In this document: in pieces, positions 17,935 to 35,966 of the stretch
Position numbering within the stretch: position 1 is the first letter of the stretch
Layout of the letters: each line of letters opens with the position of its first letter
Virus record (IMG/VR): IMGVR_UViG_3300013103_000002
Location: 1 to 60,244 of that record
Reading direction: 5' to 3' (one strand)
Origin: a virus
DNA: 60,244 bases
Translations under genes and position numbers: made by a program
The notes under the pieces: generated by a model
The model's input: only the letters and a program-made list of their open reading frames with translations
Database searches by the model: none
Told to the model about the DNA's origin: nothing

Positions 17935-19461
17935 TCAATTCAATAATACCTTTTTATTTGCGGATTTTTTCTTTGTGGTAGAAGAATTAGCAAGTCTTGC
18001 TCTTGTCTTTCCCCATTCCCGCAACGCTTCAATTTCTTCTTTCCTGCTTACAGACAAAGGTATAGTTTCTTCTATTGCTTCCAGTATATCGTTATCATTC
18101 ATGTCTCTATCTTCATAGAAAGCCTTGAGTTTTGCTTGTTTTATTGCAGTTTCTATTTCCGCTCCTGTAAATCCTTTTGTTGCTTCTGCGATTTTATCCA
18201 GATCAAAGATTTCTGGTTTCTCTCCTACTTTTCGCAGATGTATCCTTGCAATTTCTTTCCTTTCATTAGGAGCGGGCAAATCCACAAACCATATCTCATC
18301 AATTCTTCCTCTCCTTTCTAATTCTGGAGGAAGGGCTAGGACATTATTAACTGTAAATGCAAAGAAAAGTGGAGCTGTATTTTCCTGCATGAAATAGAGA
18401 AAAGAACTAATTACTCTTGCAGTAGTTCCTGCATCAGAAGAATCTGATGAAGATAACCCTGAAAATGCTTTTTCCGCTTCATCTATCATTACCACTGCGG
18501 GAGCTTGGGCTTCTATTTCCTTTAAGACCTTGCGTGTGTTTGCTTCTGTTTCTCCTAATCTACTGTTAAATAACTTTCCTATATCCACACGCAATAAAGG
18601 AATCTGGAAAAGGTTAGCCAGAATTTTACAGGAGAGAGTCTTCCCTGTCCCTGGAACTCCAGCCAAAAGCATTCCTTTAGGGACAGGAACTTTCTTTTTT
18701 ATTGCCTGTTCTCTATTCTTGAAAACTTTGCTGACCATTATTGCCCATTGTCTTAAATTATCCAGCCCGCCCAGATCATTAATTGTTTCCTGTGGAGCGA
18801 TATATTCAACCAGCCCTTCTTTCTTTACCTTTTCCGCTTTCAATCTTTGAATCAATTGCGGATCTATTTTTCCTTTACCTTTCACAATCGCTATTTCAAA
18901 CATCTTTTGGGCTTCAATCAGAGTAAGCCCTGATAAATACTCCGCACATTCTTCTAATAAAACTTTCCTTACTTTCAGTTCTTCTCTTTTACAGATCTCT
19001 TTCAGGAGATCAAAAATTTCAGTCTTTGAAGGTAGCGGAATATCAATTACTTGGCAGTATTGGCTGATTTCTGGTGGCAGATTGAATTCTCCCTGCAGGA
19101 TTACATGAACGAATTTAGAACTGTTCGCTATTTTCCTGATAAAAGAAATAATCGCAGGAACATTTAATCCTTCCCTGATGAAGCGATGATAGTTTAGTAG
19201 GAGATAAATGGTAGGCTCATCTTCTTCTTCAGCGATATGCCGAAGGATGTCAAGATAATTAGCATATTCTCTATTCCCAAGTCCATCAATAGCGTCCCAG
19301 ATTTTTAATTGGTATTCGCTCAAATCTTCTATGCGGGAAGATTCTTTTAGCTTCTTATTCAGAACTCCCACCTGTTCCTTAACATATTCAATTGCTCTTT
19401 CTGTTTCTATTGTGTTTAAGACAATTATTTTACATTGACTTCTGATCAGAAGTTCCAGCAT
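17935..19461 (-). CDS. ycf46-like: AAA+ ATPase, Ycf46-like
   Basis: The 508-aa protein has an N-terminal degenerate ATPase-like region (aa 1-220) and a C-terminal AAA+ domain. Walker A is LLAGVPGTGKTLSCK (about aa 264), Walker B VVMIDEAEKAF, sensor-like FAFTVNN and the Arg finger region ELERRGRIDEIW. This two-part layout matches Ycf46-type ATPases. The same operon encodes DUF2997 and a DUF1257-like protein, genes that commonly accompany Ycf46. It is probably a remodelling ATPase acting with these partners; its substrate is unknown. SD AAGGAGGG. Confidence 0.85.
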   Translation of the reverse strand: MLELLIRSQCKIIVLNTIETERAIEYVKEQVGVLNKKLKESSRIEDLSEYQLKIWDAIDGLGNREYANYLDILRHIAEEEDEPTIYLLLNYHRFIREGLNVPAIISFIRKIANSSKFVHVILQGEFNLPPEISQYCQVIDIPLPSKTEIFDLLKEICKREELKVRKVLLEECAEYLSGLTLIEAQKMFEIAIVKGKGKIDPQLIQRLKAEKVKKEGLVEYIAPQETINDLGGLDNLRQWAIMVSKVFKNREQAIKKKVPVPKGMLLAGVPGTGKTLSCKILANLFQIPLLRVDIGKLFNSRLGETEANTRKVLKEIEAQAPAVVMIDEAEKAFSGLSSSDSSDAGTTARVISSFLYFMQENTAPLFFAFTVNNVLALPPELERRGRIDEIWFVDLPAPNERKEIARIHLRKVGEKPEIFDLDKIAEATKGFTGAEIETAIKQAKLKAFYEDRDMNDNDILEAIEETIPLSVSRKEEIEALREWGKTRARLANSSTTKKKSANKKVLLN

Positions 19462-19479: not shown

Positions 19480-19500
19480 GCCCCAGCATAGAGCTGGGGC
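19480..19500. other. Intergenic stem-loop
   Basis: GCCCCAGC, loop ATAGA and GCTGGGGC form a perfect 8-bp stem between the DUF1874 and AAA ATPase genes. No T-run follows on the transcribed strand, so it is more likely an RNA-processing or expression-balancing element than a full terminator. Confidence 0.6.
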
Positions 19501-19510
19501 ATTTGTTTGC

Positions 19511-19843
19511 TTATAGAGAGCGGTATCTTACATAGAAGAACTCAAAATCATCTTCTCCTACTTCCTTTCCTTTGTCTGCGGGATTGCTAACCCTGTATTT
19601 CAATTTCATAACCAGCATCTCATCTCCATCATTTAAATCAGTTTCCGCTCTATTAAGTGGAACTTCTATTCCTGTCCATTTTCTTATTAACTCAACATTC
19701 TGCGGATACCCTATATAAGACTCTAACTCACCCCTTTTGTGGGCTTTTTGGAGCAAGAGCTTAAACTCCTGAAAAGAAATTTTGTATGCAGAATACTGCC
19801 CTTCCTTTGGCATTACTGCAGAATTTAACAACTTTACTGCCAT
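19511..19843 (-). CDS. DUF1874 protein (AcrIII-1 / STIV B116 family), catalytic His absent
   Basis: The 110-aa protein matches the DUF1874 pattern: LLNSAVMPKEGQY at the start, YKISFQEFKLLL, SYIGYPQNVELI and VPLNRAETDLNDGDEMLVMK. Members in archaeal viruses and phages (SIRV1 gp29, YddF) are AcrIII-1 ring nucleases that cleave cyclic tetra-adenylate and switch off type III CRISPR immunity. The family's catalytic His follows a Gly (IGH); here the residue is Tyr46 (IGY). It may bind cA4 without cutting it, use another residue, or have another role. It sits in the early accessory operon, as expected for a counter-defence gene. SD AAAGGAGG. Confidence 0.85.
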   Translation of the reverse strand: MAVKLLNSAVMPKEGQYSAYKISFQEFKLLLQKAHKRGELESYIGYPQNVELIRKWTGIEVPLNRAETDLNDGDEMLVMKLKYRVSNPADKGKEVGEDDFEFFYVRYRSL

Positions 19844-19865
19844 GATAAACCTCCTTTTTTGGTTT

Positions 19866-19937
19866 TTATCCGCAAGGGATTATTTTGCACTCTTTACAAT
19901 TCTTGAACGGGCAGATGGAGCACTCACTTAAATCCAT
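19866..19937 (-). CDS. Tiny Cys-rich peptide (23 aa)
   Basis: The peptide MDLSECSICPFKNCKECKIIP ends in CG and has six Cys in 23 residues, spaced like a metal or Fe-S ligand set. The start is after AGGTGG, a poor and close SD. It lies directly after the DUF2997 gene, overlapping nothing. The frame is open further upstream, but there it overlaps DUF2997 and lacks a signal. It could be a ferredoxin-like or zinc-binding partner; that is inference. Confidence 0.45.
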   Translation of the reverse strand: MDLSECSICPFKNCKECKIIPCG

Positions 19938-19957
19938 ATCCACCTGCCCGTTCTCTC

Positions 19958-20131
19958 CTATTCGGAGACAGATATAATGCAATCTGTCTCCGTCAGATCT
20001 TCTTGTTCCAGAATTATTCCTAGTCTGTCTGTAATTTGCCTTATTGGTTCTCTGCATTCTTCCCCCCAAAAATTTTGCCCTTCTATTCTTACTTCCCCGT
20101 TTTCTTTGATTTCAATTTTAATTACAGGCAT
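19958..20131 (-). CDS. DUF2997-like small protein
   Basis: The 57-aa protein starts at MPVIKIEIKENGEVRIEG after GGAGGG. The strand-rich N-terminus, the FWGEEC motif and the helix PIRQITDRLGII match DUF2997 (dG.v...f.G..C). Genes of this family usually lie beside DUF1257/Ycf35 and Ycf46-type AAA ATPases, as here. The role is unknown. Confidence 0.75.
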   Translation of the reverse strand: MPVIKIEIKENGEVRIEGQNFWGEECREPIRQITDRLGIILEQEDLTETDCIISVSE

Positions 20132-22044: not shown

Positions 22045-22088
22045 CCTTTTCCTCCTTTGTTTGTTTTTGTTAAACTTTTGTTAATTCT

Positions 22089-22117
22089 AATTTAATCACA
22101 GGTTTTGTTTTTGTCAA
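22089..22117 (-). promoter_or_regulatory. Leftward sigma-A promoter of accessory operon
   Basis: On the minus strand TTGACA (22117-22112), a 17-nt spacer and TAAATT (22094-22089) precede the zinc-ribbon gene by about 45 bp. It is divergent from the promoter at 22126-22153. Confidence 0.75.
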
Positions 22118-22125
22118 GAAAAAGT

Positions 22126-22153
22126 TTGAAAATTTTTTCAAATTTATTATAAT
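22126..22153 (+). promoter_or_regulatory. Rightward promoter before terS
   Basis: TTGAAA (22126-22131), a 16-nt spacer and TATAAT (22148-22153). The predicted start, about 22160, falls on the first base of an operator palindrome (22160-22173), a classic repressor position. Confidence 0.75.
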
Positions 22154-22159
22154 TGTCAG

Positions 22160-22173
22160 TGAAAACGTTTTCA
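22160..22173. promoter_or_regulatory. Operator palindrome at the rightward start site
   Basis: Exact TGAAAACGTTTTCA with flanks G and A. It covers about +1 to +14 of the terS promoter, so bound protein should block initiation or early elongation. Confidence 0.8.
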
Positions 22174-22199
22174 ATTCAACAAAAAAAGGAGGTTGAGCG

Positions 22200-33083: not shown

Positions 33084-35966
33084 ATGGAGAGTTTCTCTAT
33101 AAACGAAGTTCCTTATAACTTCAATGATGTTCCTACCATTAAGAAGTTTTATCTTTCAAACAAGAAAATCAGGGCTATTGTAGGACCGTATGGTTGTTTT
33201 CCAGAATATTGTGAGTATTTGAGTTTTTCTGATGGAGAATATCGCTGGAAGAAGATCAAGGATTATCAAGAAGGGGAAAAGATTGCGGTTTATGATTTTG
33301 AGACAAAGGAGCTTCGGTTTGAGAAGCCTTTGGCTTATGTAAAGCTCCCTATGAATGATCTCTGGATTCATATTCGTGGCAGTAGATTTTTTGAAGCGAT
33401 AGTTTCTCCTGAACATGTCTTTCCCTATATTGTGTCTCATTCTGGGAAATATGGAGTGAAGTCCATTACTGAATTGATTAAGTGGGGGATTACGAATGCA
33501 AGGGTGGTTAATACTTTTCGCATTTGTGGGGAGACTTTTGGTTTAGATGAGTGGTTGGTCAGGTTTATAGCGATGCTTTCTGCTGATGGGCATAAGTGTT
33601 CTGATACCAGATGGCAGGTTTCTTTGAGGAGACGGAGGAAGATTGAGAGGTTGGAGTTTTTGTGCAGGAAGGTAGGAGTTCCTTATTCTCGTAAAGTTTA
33701 TGATTCCCGTCCTACTGAAAATGTTTTCATTTTAGATTTATCTTCTCATCCGCAACTTGCGGGGTTGACCAAGAAGTTTCCGAATTATTTTTACAATTTA
33801 TCTTCTGATTTACTTGATGTTTTAGTGGATGAGATTTTGTATTGGGACGGCTCATTTTACAATGGGAATGATAGGAGATATTTTACGACCATTAAGGAGA
33901 ATGCTGAATTTATCCAGTATGCTTCTCATGCAACGGGCAGGCGTGCTTCCGTTCTTAAAGTTTCGTATCCGAAAGATAATTGGAAGGATTGTTATATTGT
34001 TCATATTTCTGGGAAGGGGGTAAAGAAGACCTGTTTTATTGACAAGGATGCTCCTAAAGATAGGTCAATAAGGTATATTTCTCCGAAGGAAGGTGAATTT
34101 AAGTATTGTTTTACCACTTCAACAGGGTTTTTTCTTGTTAGGTTTAATGGAGCTGTTTATATTTCTGGGAATTCGGGCAAGTCATCTGGTTGTGTTATTA
34201 CTATGCTTCGTCATACTTGTGAGCAGATGCCAGATCCGCATGGGATAAGGAGAACTAGATGGGTTGTTGTTAGAAATTGTTATTCTGATGATACAGAGAT
34301 TCTGACAGAGAAGCGGGGCTGGGTATTGTTTAAAGATTTACTTCCTGATGATAAGGTGGCTCAATATAATCCTGCGACTGATAGATTGGAATTTGTAAAG
34401 CCGACTTATTATTATCGCTCCTATTATAGTGGAGATATGATTTGGGTTCATTCCAGTAGAAAGGAGCTTGATCTTCTTGTTACTCCAGATCATAGGCTTT
34501 ATGTTGCTGATTATAAAGATGGAAAGTGTGGGTCTTTTGATTTTAAAATGGCAAAGTTTTGTTATGGGAAGAAAGTTGCTTTTATTGGTTCTGATGGAGA
34601 GTTGATAGTTGCAGATGAATCTGATTGGGATATGGTAGCTTATAGTGGAATGGTTTATTGTGTAGAAGTTCCTACTCATATCATTTTGGTTTGCAGGAAT
34701 GGAAAACCAGTTCTTTGTTCCCAGACTTACAGACAGCTGAAGGACACAACCAAAAAGACAATAGACTACTGGTTGCGGTTTGCAGAATGGAGAGAATCAG
34801 AGTTTAAGTATATTCTCAAGTTCAGGTTGCAGGATAATACGATAGTGGAGTCTGAATGGCTTTTGAGAGCGTTGGACAGACCAGAGCATATTGCGAATTT
34901 ACTTTCTTTAGAGATAACGGGTGCGTGGTTGAATGAAGCAAGGGAGATTCCGAAGGAGATTTTTGATGCGATAGAAGGAAGATTGCGTTATCCTCCTACA
35001 ATAAGAGACAGAGATGGGAAAGTTTTATATGGTCCTACTTGGTTAGGGATTTTGTTAGACACGAACCCTCCTGATGAAGATCATTGGTTTTACAAGTATT
35101 TTGAAGAAAATAGACCAGAGAAAGCGGAGATTTTTCATCAGCCATCTGGTTTATCTCCTGAAGCGGAGAATATCAGGAATCTTCCTCCGAATTATTATCA
35201 GGATCTTTGTGTTGGCAAGGATCAGGATTGGATAGATGTTTATGTGCATGGGAAATATGGTTCTGTAAGGTCGGGCAAGCCTGTATTTTCTCTCTACAAT
35301 GATGAGATTCATTGTGCGAAAGAGCCGTTAGCTCCATTGATGGGATTTCCGTTGATAATTGGAATGGATTTTGGTTTAACTCCTGCTGCTGTGATTTTAC
35401 AGAAGCCTCCACGCAGGTTATTTGTTCTTGATGAAGTTGTAGCTGAAGAACCGATTGATGTAATTGAGTTTATTCGTTATATGCTTCTTCCTTTTATGGA
35501 GGAGAAGGAATTTTATCGGGGCAAGAATTTCATAATTGTGGGAGATCCAGCAGGTAAGGCAAGGTCGCAGGTTGATGGAAGGAGTGTATTTGAAGCGATA
35601 AATCAGTTAGGGTTGCGTGCTTATCCTGCCTATACGAACTCTTTACAAATCAGGTTAAATGCGGTAAATCAATATTTAACAAGATTGGATACTTTTGCTG
35701 GGGAGATGAAGCCAGCGTTTTTATTATCTCCTACTTGCAGGATGCTGAGGCAAGCCTTGAAAGGGAAGTATAGGATGAAAAGGGTAGCGACTGGGACAGA
35801 TATGTATTCTGATGTTCCTGTGAAGGACAAGTGGTCGCATGTTGCGGATGCGTTGCAATATGGAGCTTTAGGGTATAGGAAGCCGACTTTTAATGAAGAA
35901 TTTGATGAGTTTTCTAACATAGAAGGGCGGGGAGGACCAACGCATTTAGGAACAGGTATTTATTAA
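33084..35966 (+). CDS. terL: Terminase large subunit carrying two inteins
   Basis: The 960-aa precursor splices to about 485 aa. The joined extein reads VGPYGSGKSSGCV (Walker A), then RWVVVRNTYRQLKDTT, then SLEITGAWLNEAREIP (Walker B region). The nuclease domain has GMDFGLTPAAVI, FIIVGDPAGKARSQVDG and KWSHVADALQYG. It pumps DNA into the prohead and cuts it. Intein 1 splits the P-loop after GPYG; intein 2 splits RN|T. Both must splice out for activity. SD GAGGAGGG. Confidence 0.93.
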   Translation: MESFSINEVPYNFNDVPTIKKFYLSNKKIRAIVGPYGCFPEYCEYLSFSDGEYRWKKIKDYQEGEKIAVYDFETKELRFEKPLAYVKLPMNDLWIHIRGSRFFEAIVSPEHVFPYIVSHSGKYGVKSITELIKWGITNARVVNTFRICGETFGLDEWLVRFIAMLSADGHKCSDTRWQVSLRRRRKIERLEFLCRKVGVPYSRKVYDSRPTENVFILDLSSHPQLAGLTKKFPNYFYNLSSDLLDVLVDEILYWDGSFYNGNDRRYFTTIKENAEFIQYASHATGRRASVLKVSYPKDNWKDCYIVHISGKGVKKTCFIDKDAPKDRSIRYISPKEGEFKYCFTTSTGFFLVRFNGAVYISGNSGKSSGCVITMLRHTCEQMPDPHGIRRTRWVVVRNCYSDDTEILTEKRGWVLFKDLLPDDKVAQYNPATDRLEFVKPTYYYRSYYSGDMIWVHSSRKELDLLVTPDHRLYVADYKDGKCGSFDFKMAKFCYGKKVAFIGSDGELIVADESDWDMVAYSGMVYCVEVPTHIILVCRNGKPVLCSQTYRQLKDTTKKTIDYWLRFAEWRESEFKYILKFRLQDNTIVESEWLLRALDRPEHIANLLSLEITGAWLNEAREIPKEIFDAIEGRLRYPPTIRDRDGKVLYGPTWLGILLDTNPPDEDHWFYKYFEENRPEKAEIFHQPSGLSPEAENIRNLPPNYYQDLCVGKDQDWIDVYVHGKYGSVRSGKPVFSLYNDEIHCAKEPLAPLMGFPLIIGMDFGLTPAAVILQKPPRRLFVLDEVVAEEPIDVIEFIRYMLLPFMEEKEFYRGKNFIIVGDPAGKARSQVDGRSVFEAINQLGLRAYPAYTNSLQIRLNAVNQYLTRLDTFAGEMKPAFLLSPTCRMLRQALKGKYRMKRVATGTDMYSDVPVKDKWSHVADALQYGALGYRKPTFNEEFDEFSNIEGRGGPTHLGTGIY
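33195..34172 (+). mobile_element. Intein 1 with LAGLIDADG-type homing endonuclease
   Basis: 326 codons from Cys38 (CFPEYCEYLSFSDGEYRW) to GN before SGKSS. Splicing blocks are at both ends; the C-terminal residues are VYISGN with Gly in place of the usual penultimate His, and Ser is the next extein residue. The central region has WLVRFIAMLSADG and VDEILYWDGSF, the two LAGLIDADG-type motifs, so homing may be active. An operator variant (33716) lies inside. Confidence 0.88.
33716..33729. promoter_or_regulatory. Operator variant inside intein 1
   Basis: TGAAAATGTTTTCA translated as TENVFI. Its presence inside a potentially mobile intein suggests the intein has been resident long enough to acquire the genome's signature. 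Confidence 0.65.
34278..34724 (+). other. Intein 2 (mini-intein, no endonuclease)
   Basis: 149 codons from Cys (CYSDDTEILTEKRGW) to SQ before TYRQLKDTT. Block B is LDLLVTPDHRLYV and the C-terminal blocks are YSGMVYCVEVPTHIILV and PVLCSQ. The last residue is Gln rather than Asn, a known but uncommon variant. No LAGLIDADG motif is present. Confidence 0.85.

Follow-up and report, generated by a model that had tools for sequence, protein, structure and literature searches.

What a viral protein of the DUF1874 (AcrIII-1) family does once it has lost the family's catalytic histidine is the question raised by the gene at 19511-19843 (minus strand, 110 aa) of a 60,244-bp contig, the whole of which constitutes the window analysed here. 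The contig (C1) is assigned to a 1.97-Mb bacterial bin of 360 contigs. Its ends are identical over 123 bp and it encodes a polymerase, helicases, a primase, a UvsX-like recombinase, terminase, portal and major head protein, from which it is judged to be the genome of a tailed phage, complete or almost so.

The original prediction had placed the reading frame at exactly these positions and had assigned its product to DUF1874 by pattern, and both points were borne out. The protein scores 54.2 bits against the Pfam profile PF08960 (STIV_B116-like; cutoff 26, E 1.7e-14), matches PHROG 5063 in a profile search and finds Csx1-Crn2 of Marinitoga (8y7f/8y6z/8y7g), AFV3-109 and STIV B116 in a phmmer search of the PDB, where its IGY46 is aligned to IGH in the natural relatives and to IGA in the H495A mutant. 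A Shine-Dalgarno sequence, AGGAGG, stands a few bases before the ATG (19850-19855, minus strand), and the codon-usage score is 0.24 bits per codon in frame, like that of neighbouring phage genes, while the two remaining frames score about 0; because of these two features the gene looks intact and real.

The replacement of the histidine is confirmed by the alignment. The codon TAT at 19706-19708 (minus strand) puts Tyr46 in the place of the family His (H47 in SIRV1 gp29, H45 in AFV3-109, H495 in Csx1-Crn2). For comparison, DUF1874 members were gathered from public phages, plasmids, IMG/VR and whole genomes, including one CRISPR operon, and placed in a single profile alignment, in which Tyr46 is unique among the 42 distinct members covering the site, the other 41 all having His. 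One scan for members used two peptide patterns of which one contained GH, giving a bias towards His; GH-free searches, by tblastn and by a later IMG/VR scan with the patterns G[IT]EVP[LMA]NR and G[DQ][KE][AM][LI][VI][FM]K, also yielded GH members only, four of them in that scan. The IMG/VR and GTDB contigs hold no close relative of the protein that these searches could find, no second GY homologue was found in the IMG/VR, GTDB, public phage, plasmid and genome sequences searched, which makes the GY protein a singleton, and neither the sequence searches nor those of the literature gave a natural AcrIII-1 lacking the His.

Tyr46 is not the only change in the active site. Sixteen positions are at least 80% conserved in the relatives; eight of them are kept (L6, N7, S42, G45, N64, R65, L81 and R84) and eight are replaced, namely F27 (consensus Ala), Y43 (Ala), Y46 (His), N49 (Thr), V50 (Ala), T57 (Leu), N87 (Glu) and P88 (Gly). 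Near the histidine, the family Thr49 (40 of 41 relatives) has become Asn (codon AAT, 19697-19699; T48 in AFV3-109) and Ala50 (38/41) has become Val. In the lid loop, where R-x-x-E-G reads R-V-S-N-P, Glu87 (38/41) is replaced by Asn (codon AAT, 19583-19585) and Gly88 (36/41) by Pro. The equivalent of this glutamate in AFV3-109, Glu86, receives through its carboxylate a hydrogen bond from His45 of the opposite subunit; in the same structure a bound glycerol contacts Asn6, Glu86', Val90, Leu80, Thr48 and His45, Arg64 touches His45, Arg83 is a dimer contact and residues 81-93 form the lid segment (PMC1796864). Residues retained in the phage protein include Asn7 (19823-19825; N6 in AFV3-109) and the invariant arginines Arg65 of the pocket (19649-19651; R64) and Arg84 (19592-19594; R83), these codons and those of Asn49 and Asn87 all being on the minus strand. 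Thus, the lost residues correspond to those that in AFV3-109 touch each other or the glycerol (His45-Glu86', Thr48), while those kept (Asn6, Leu80, Arg64, Arg83, Gly44) line the same cavity. The His-Thr-Glu cluster has been lost as a set, which needs at least four base changes, and its joint loss with the pocket Asn, Leu and both Arg kept excludes a single miscalled base and is unlike the scatter expected of simple decay.

The predicted structure agrees with the family assignment. An AlphaFold2 model built from 20 sequences has a mean pLDDT of 90.7 and a pTM of 0.83, with the lid as its least confident part (mean pLDDT 71 over residues 81-90). In Foldseek it matches all solved AcrIII-1/Crn2 members with E values of 6e-10 to 1e-4 and nothing else convincingly; the TM scores are 0.83 for Csx1-Crn2 H495A with cA4 (8y7g), 0.80 for STIV B116, 0.75 for AFV3-109 and 0.73 for SIRV1 gp29 (6scf). 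The protein is a DUF1874 member by sequence and by fold. It had been considered that another histidine might occupy the active site; as far as the sequence and the monomer model allow, none does. The sole other histidine and only candidate, H35, stands close to the C-terminus of helix 1 (residues 24-36), just before the strand 40-44 that leads to G45-Y46, and is predicted to sit at the end of the fold opposite to the beta3-alpha2 loop, in which residue 46 lies. By secondary structure and topology, this helix and this strand end on opposite faces of the sheet, so that H35 is unlikely to replace the missing histidine within the same subunit. The His and its Glu partner, two features that define the enzyme, were looked for and are absent, for which reason the protein should not be named an AcrIII-1/Crn2 ring nuclease, while it may still have an anti-CRISPR action by binding. 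Naming DUF1874 genes 'AcrIII-1 ring nuclease' from a profile alone can mislead, as this protein easily passes the Pfam cutoff with none of the known catalytic residues.

Three functions had been offered for the protein in the original prediction, a sponge, a protein acting on another cyclic nucleotide and a regulator, and among these the sponge appears to have the most indirect support. The explanation that we prefer, while giving it slightly less than an even chance, is that the protein is a catalytically dead AcrIII-1 which would bind cyclic oligoadenylate in a sponge-like manner instead of cutting it. It would then be an accessory ('moron') protein of the AcrIII-1 fold that has lost the ring-nuclease chemistry, would still form the cradle-shaped dimer of the family and would bind cyclic oligoadenylate (cA4 being the likeliest) without cutting it rapidly. 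Stoichiometric sequestration would lower the free alarm signal during infection and thereby shield the phage from the ancillary effectors of type III CRISPR; a very slow remaining cleavage would not contradict such sequestration. In evolutionary terms, a viral ring nuclease may have been naturally converted into a sponge for cyclic oligoadenylate, or into a receptor for another signal, by removal of the His-Thr-Glu cluster with the binding arginines kept, a conversion that is plausible at rather less than even chances.

Binding of cA4 by the His-less protein is proposed by analogy with SIRV1 gp29 H47A, an inactive mutant that binds cA4 tightly, with a KD of about 25 nM compared with 130 nM for the effector Csx1 (PMC7213978). 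In Csx1-Crn2 the H495A substitution abolishes cA4 cleavage, and the authors suggest sequestration at the dead site as one possible cause of a slowed initial rate (PMC7293037); this mutant has been crystallised with cA4 (PDB 8y7g). Like the phage protein, both mutants are without the His and their binding of cA4 is published (PMC7213978; 8y7g), but they are single substitutions made in the laboratory, whereas the phage protein is natural and has changes of the Thr, the Glu and the lid in addition. The changed lid (E87N, G88P, pLDDT about 71), a loop that shuts over the cavity, could weaken cA4 binding. Furthermore, SIRV2 AcrIII-1 gave no protection against type III immunity during infection when produced from its native promoter (PMC11065993), and hence even intact viral members may have another role.

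Set against known systems, the protein is closest to the AcrIII-1 ring nucleases (SIRV1 gp29, 6scf/2x4i; AFV3-109, 2j6b; STIV B116, 2j85), which are of the same family and fold (TM 0.69-0.80), virus-borne and of similar length, and which share with it the invariant Arg pair, Asn7, Gly45 and Ser42; it differs from them in having Tyr for His, Asn for Glu, Asn for Thr and NP for EG in the lid, the sampled AcrIII-1 proteins all having His. The cellular Crn2/YddF members (Csx1-Crn2, a Vibrio plasmid member next to cas1 and the Cmr-operon member of genome G076) have the domain and the pocket in common with the phage protein, but they are GH proteins linked to CRISPR, while the phage gene stands in a phage operon. 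With the phage sponges Tad1, Tad2, Acb2 and Acb4 the likeness would lie in the proposed sequestration in place of cleavage, and Foldseek found no sequence or fold link to any of the four. A PADLOC 'Csx16' match of the protein was followed as a lead to another ring-nuclease family and rejected, as the profile concerned, PDLC01147, scores typical AcrIII-1 proteins at 66-118 bits, so that the match tells no more than that the protein belongs to the family; scanned with the phage protein and seven relatives, it indicates that 'Csx16' calls by PADLOC may be Crn2/AcrIII-1. AcrIII-1 has been described as an enzyme whose advantage is the fast catalytic turnover of cA4; a natural member that is non-catalytic would be a test of sequestration alone against type III signalling, or would alternatively show the AcrIII-1 fold moving to another signal.

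The latter possibility is the first of the alternatives to the preferred sponge-like reading. The rebuilt pocket (Y46, P47, N49, V50, N87, P88) could bind a different cyclic or linear nucleotide, or cut it by another mechanism, candidates being a cyclic oligoadenylate of another ring size, a CBASS signal or SAM-AMP; we regard such a shift of specificity, together with its candidate ligands, as unlikely. The changes do cluster at the ligand site and the lid, as the eight lost residues include the H, T and A of GHxxTA and the EG of the lid while N7, R65 and R84 remain, and CARF-type ring nucleases are not known to depend on a catalytic His. However, the new pocket is shared by no homologue and so gains no support from conservation, and no particular signalling system is indicated within the window.

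The position of the gene bears both on the sponge-like reading, for which its insertion as a discrete cassette and the GH member of a related phage speak, and on the second alternative. The next gene downstream encodes an AAA ATPase (17935-19461, minus strand), a conserved operon partner that is 62-70% identical in four related phages. Immediately upstream lies a small Cys-rich ORF (19866-20069, minus strand), whose true start is uncertain and whose Cys-rich C-terminus is conserved in relatives; it overlaps the DUF2997 gene further upstream (19958-20131, minus strand), a gene conserved in the relatives' operon as well. A perfect 8-bp GC-rich stem-loop (19480-19500, minus strand; fold z-score -3.5) lies in the gap that divides the stop codon of the DUF1874 gene from the start of the AAA ATPase gene; on the plus strand it is terminator-like. 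The four related IMG/VR phages have the same AAA gene and the same upstream genes, and in them the AAA start abuts the Cys-rich ORF with no gap, so that the DUF1874 gene with its stem-loop is, on this comparison of sequences, an accessory insertion of about 0.4 kb peculiar to this phage within the set compared. In its nearest relative (L012, contig G148) an intact GH DUF1874 member is present elsewhere, in an accessory region (L026:6001-6357 / L017:1486-1842; IMGVR_UViG_3300028908_000010), which shows that the phage lineage does carry the counter-defence family; given its different place and its identity of 23% to the protein studied here, the lineage seems to have acquired the family twice, separately. 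The location in the first leftward operon had been read as that expected of early counter-defence, and of this the leftward part stands, the gene being in a leftward block of replication genes about 2.3 kb from a divergent promoter region (22045-22199), while nothing shows that it is early; as a sign of counter-defence the position is context, not evidence.

With this neighbourhood in mind, a role apart from signalling may be considered, in which the protein binds nucleic acid or another protein, for instance in regulation, and the nucleotide pocket has fallen into disuse. AFV3-109 bound dsDNA in a fluorescence titration, although its authors report no strong positive surface patch (PMC1796864). 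Several archaeal-virus members carry the RefSeq label 'DNA binding protein', and the failure of SIRV2 AcrIII-1 as an anti-CRISPR from its native promoter (PMC11065993) fits here as well. The adjoining AAA ATPase could be a partner, but the AAA gene is without an adjoining DUF1874 gene in the four related phages and hence does not require one as its partner, and the pocket arginines and Asn7 have been kept. We view a role of this kind as improbable, to the same degree as the shift of specificity.

Slightly less probable still is that the gene is a neutral AcrIII-1 remnant, recently inactivated and nearing loss since its transfer to hosts that have no type III CRISPR. No Csm1/Cmr2 (Cas10) and no Cas1 was found in the assigned bin, a result that counts against the sponge-like reading and that, together with the singleton status of the protein and the loss of several conserved residues, would suit a remnant. 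On the other hand, the bin is just 88.8% complete and the phage is linked to it by binning only, so that the missing Cas10 and Cas1 neither support nor exclude a type III target. The frame is open over the full family length and has a strong Shine-Dalgarno sequence, neighbour-like codon usage and a confident fold, and the losses centre on the active site with other conserved pocket residues untouched. A weak Csm1 match in the bin proved to be the HD part of an apparent RNase Y and not Cas10. Csm1 (type III-A) is over the cutoff in two of 18 genomes of the same bacterial order, a point in favour of the sponge-like reading. For a CRISPR-spacer link to hosts, a 20-kb part of the phage was compared at the DNA level with sequences of the order, which gave short scattered matches only. 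In genome G076, of the same class, a GH DUF1874 (Crn2) gene (L011:569-1006) directly follows Cmr5 and RAMP genes in a type III-B operon. That the change of the His codon is an error of assembly or sequencing, for which one C-to-T change (CAT to TAT) would suffice, is very improbable indeed, as T49N, A50V, E87N and G88P at the same site need several more changes and the frame is intact.

Other observations concern the family beyond this phage. On the Vibrio aerogenes plasmid pLMG19650 (L009), a YddF/DUF1874 gene of the GH type and a very long cas1 of about 1000 aa, possibly a fusion, are divergently oriented. Erwinia phage proteins in BFVD (A0A1B2IEC3 and A0A1B2IEJ3 of phage Kwan, J7KCD4 of phiEaH2) have a DUF1874-like fold with TM scores of 0.65-0.69 at 10-13% identity and are possibly an unrecognised, expanded branch of the DUF1874 fold.

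Within the phage genome itself, the ORF of the terminase large subunit (33084-35966, 960 aa) apparently contains two inteins, of which the first splits the Walker A region (GPYG...SGKSSG); the intein stretches give PHROG matches to PhoH-like and ribonucleotide reductase families, presumably to intein-bearing members of these. The palindrome TGAAAACGTTTTCA, allowing at most two mismatches, occurs at 26 sites throughout the phage genome, within genes as well as between them, where 0.37 would be expected (6551, 7512, 11404, 14878, 16613, 17821, 20481, 22127, 22160, 23104, 25397, 25846, 27005, 27034, 27613, 30872, 33057, 33716, 38543, 40655, 44851, 46412, 51327, 53659, 55132 and 58412). The site at 22160 is within the divergent promoter region, and the same dispersed palindrome is found in the four related phages (L012-L015); it looks like a set of operator or stoperator sites of a phage regulator or one of the LacI/CcpA type.
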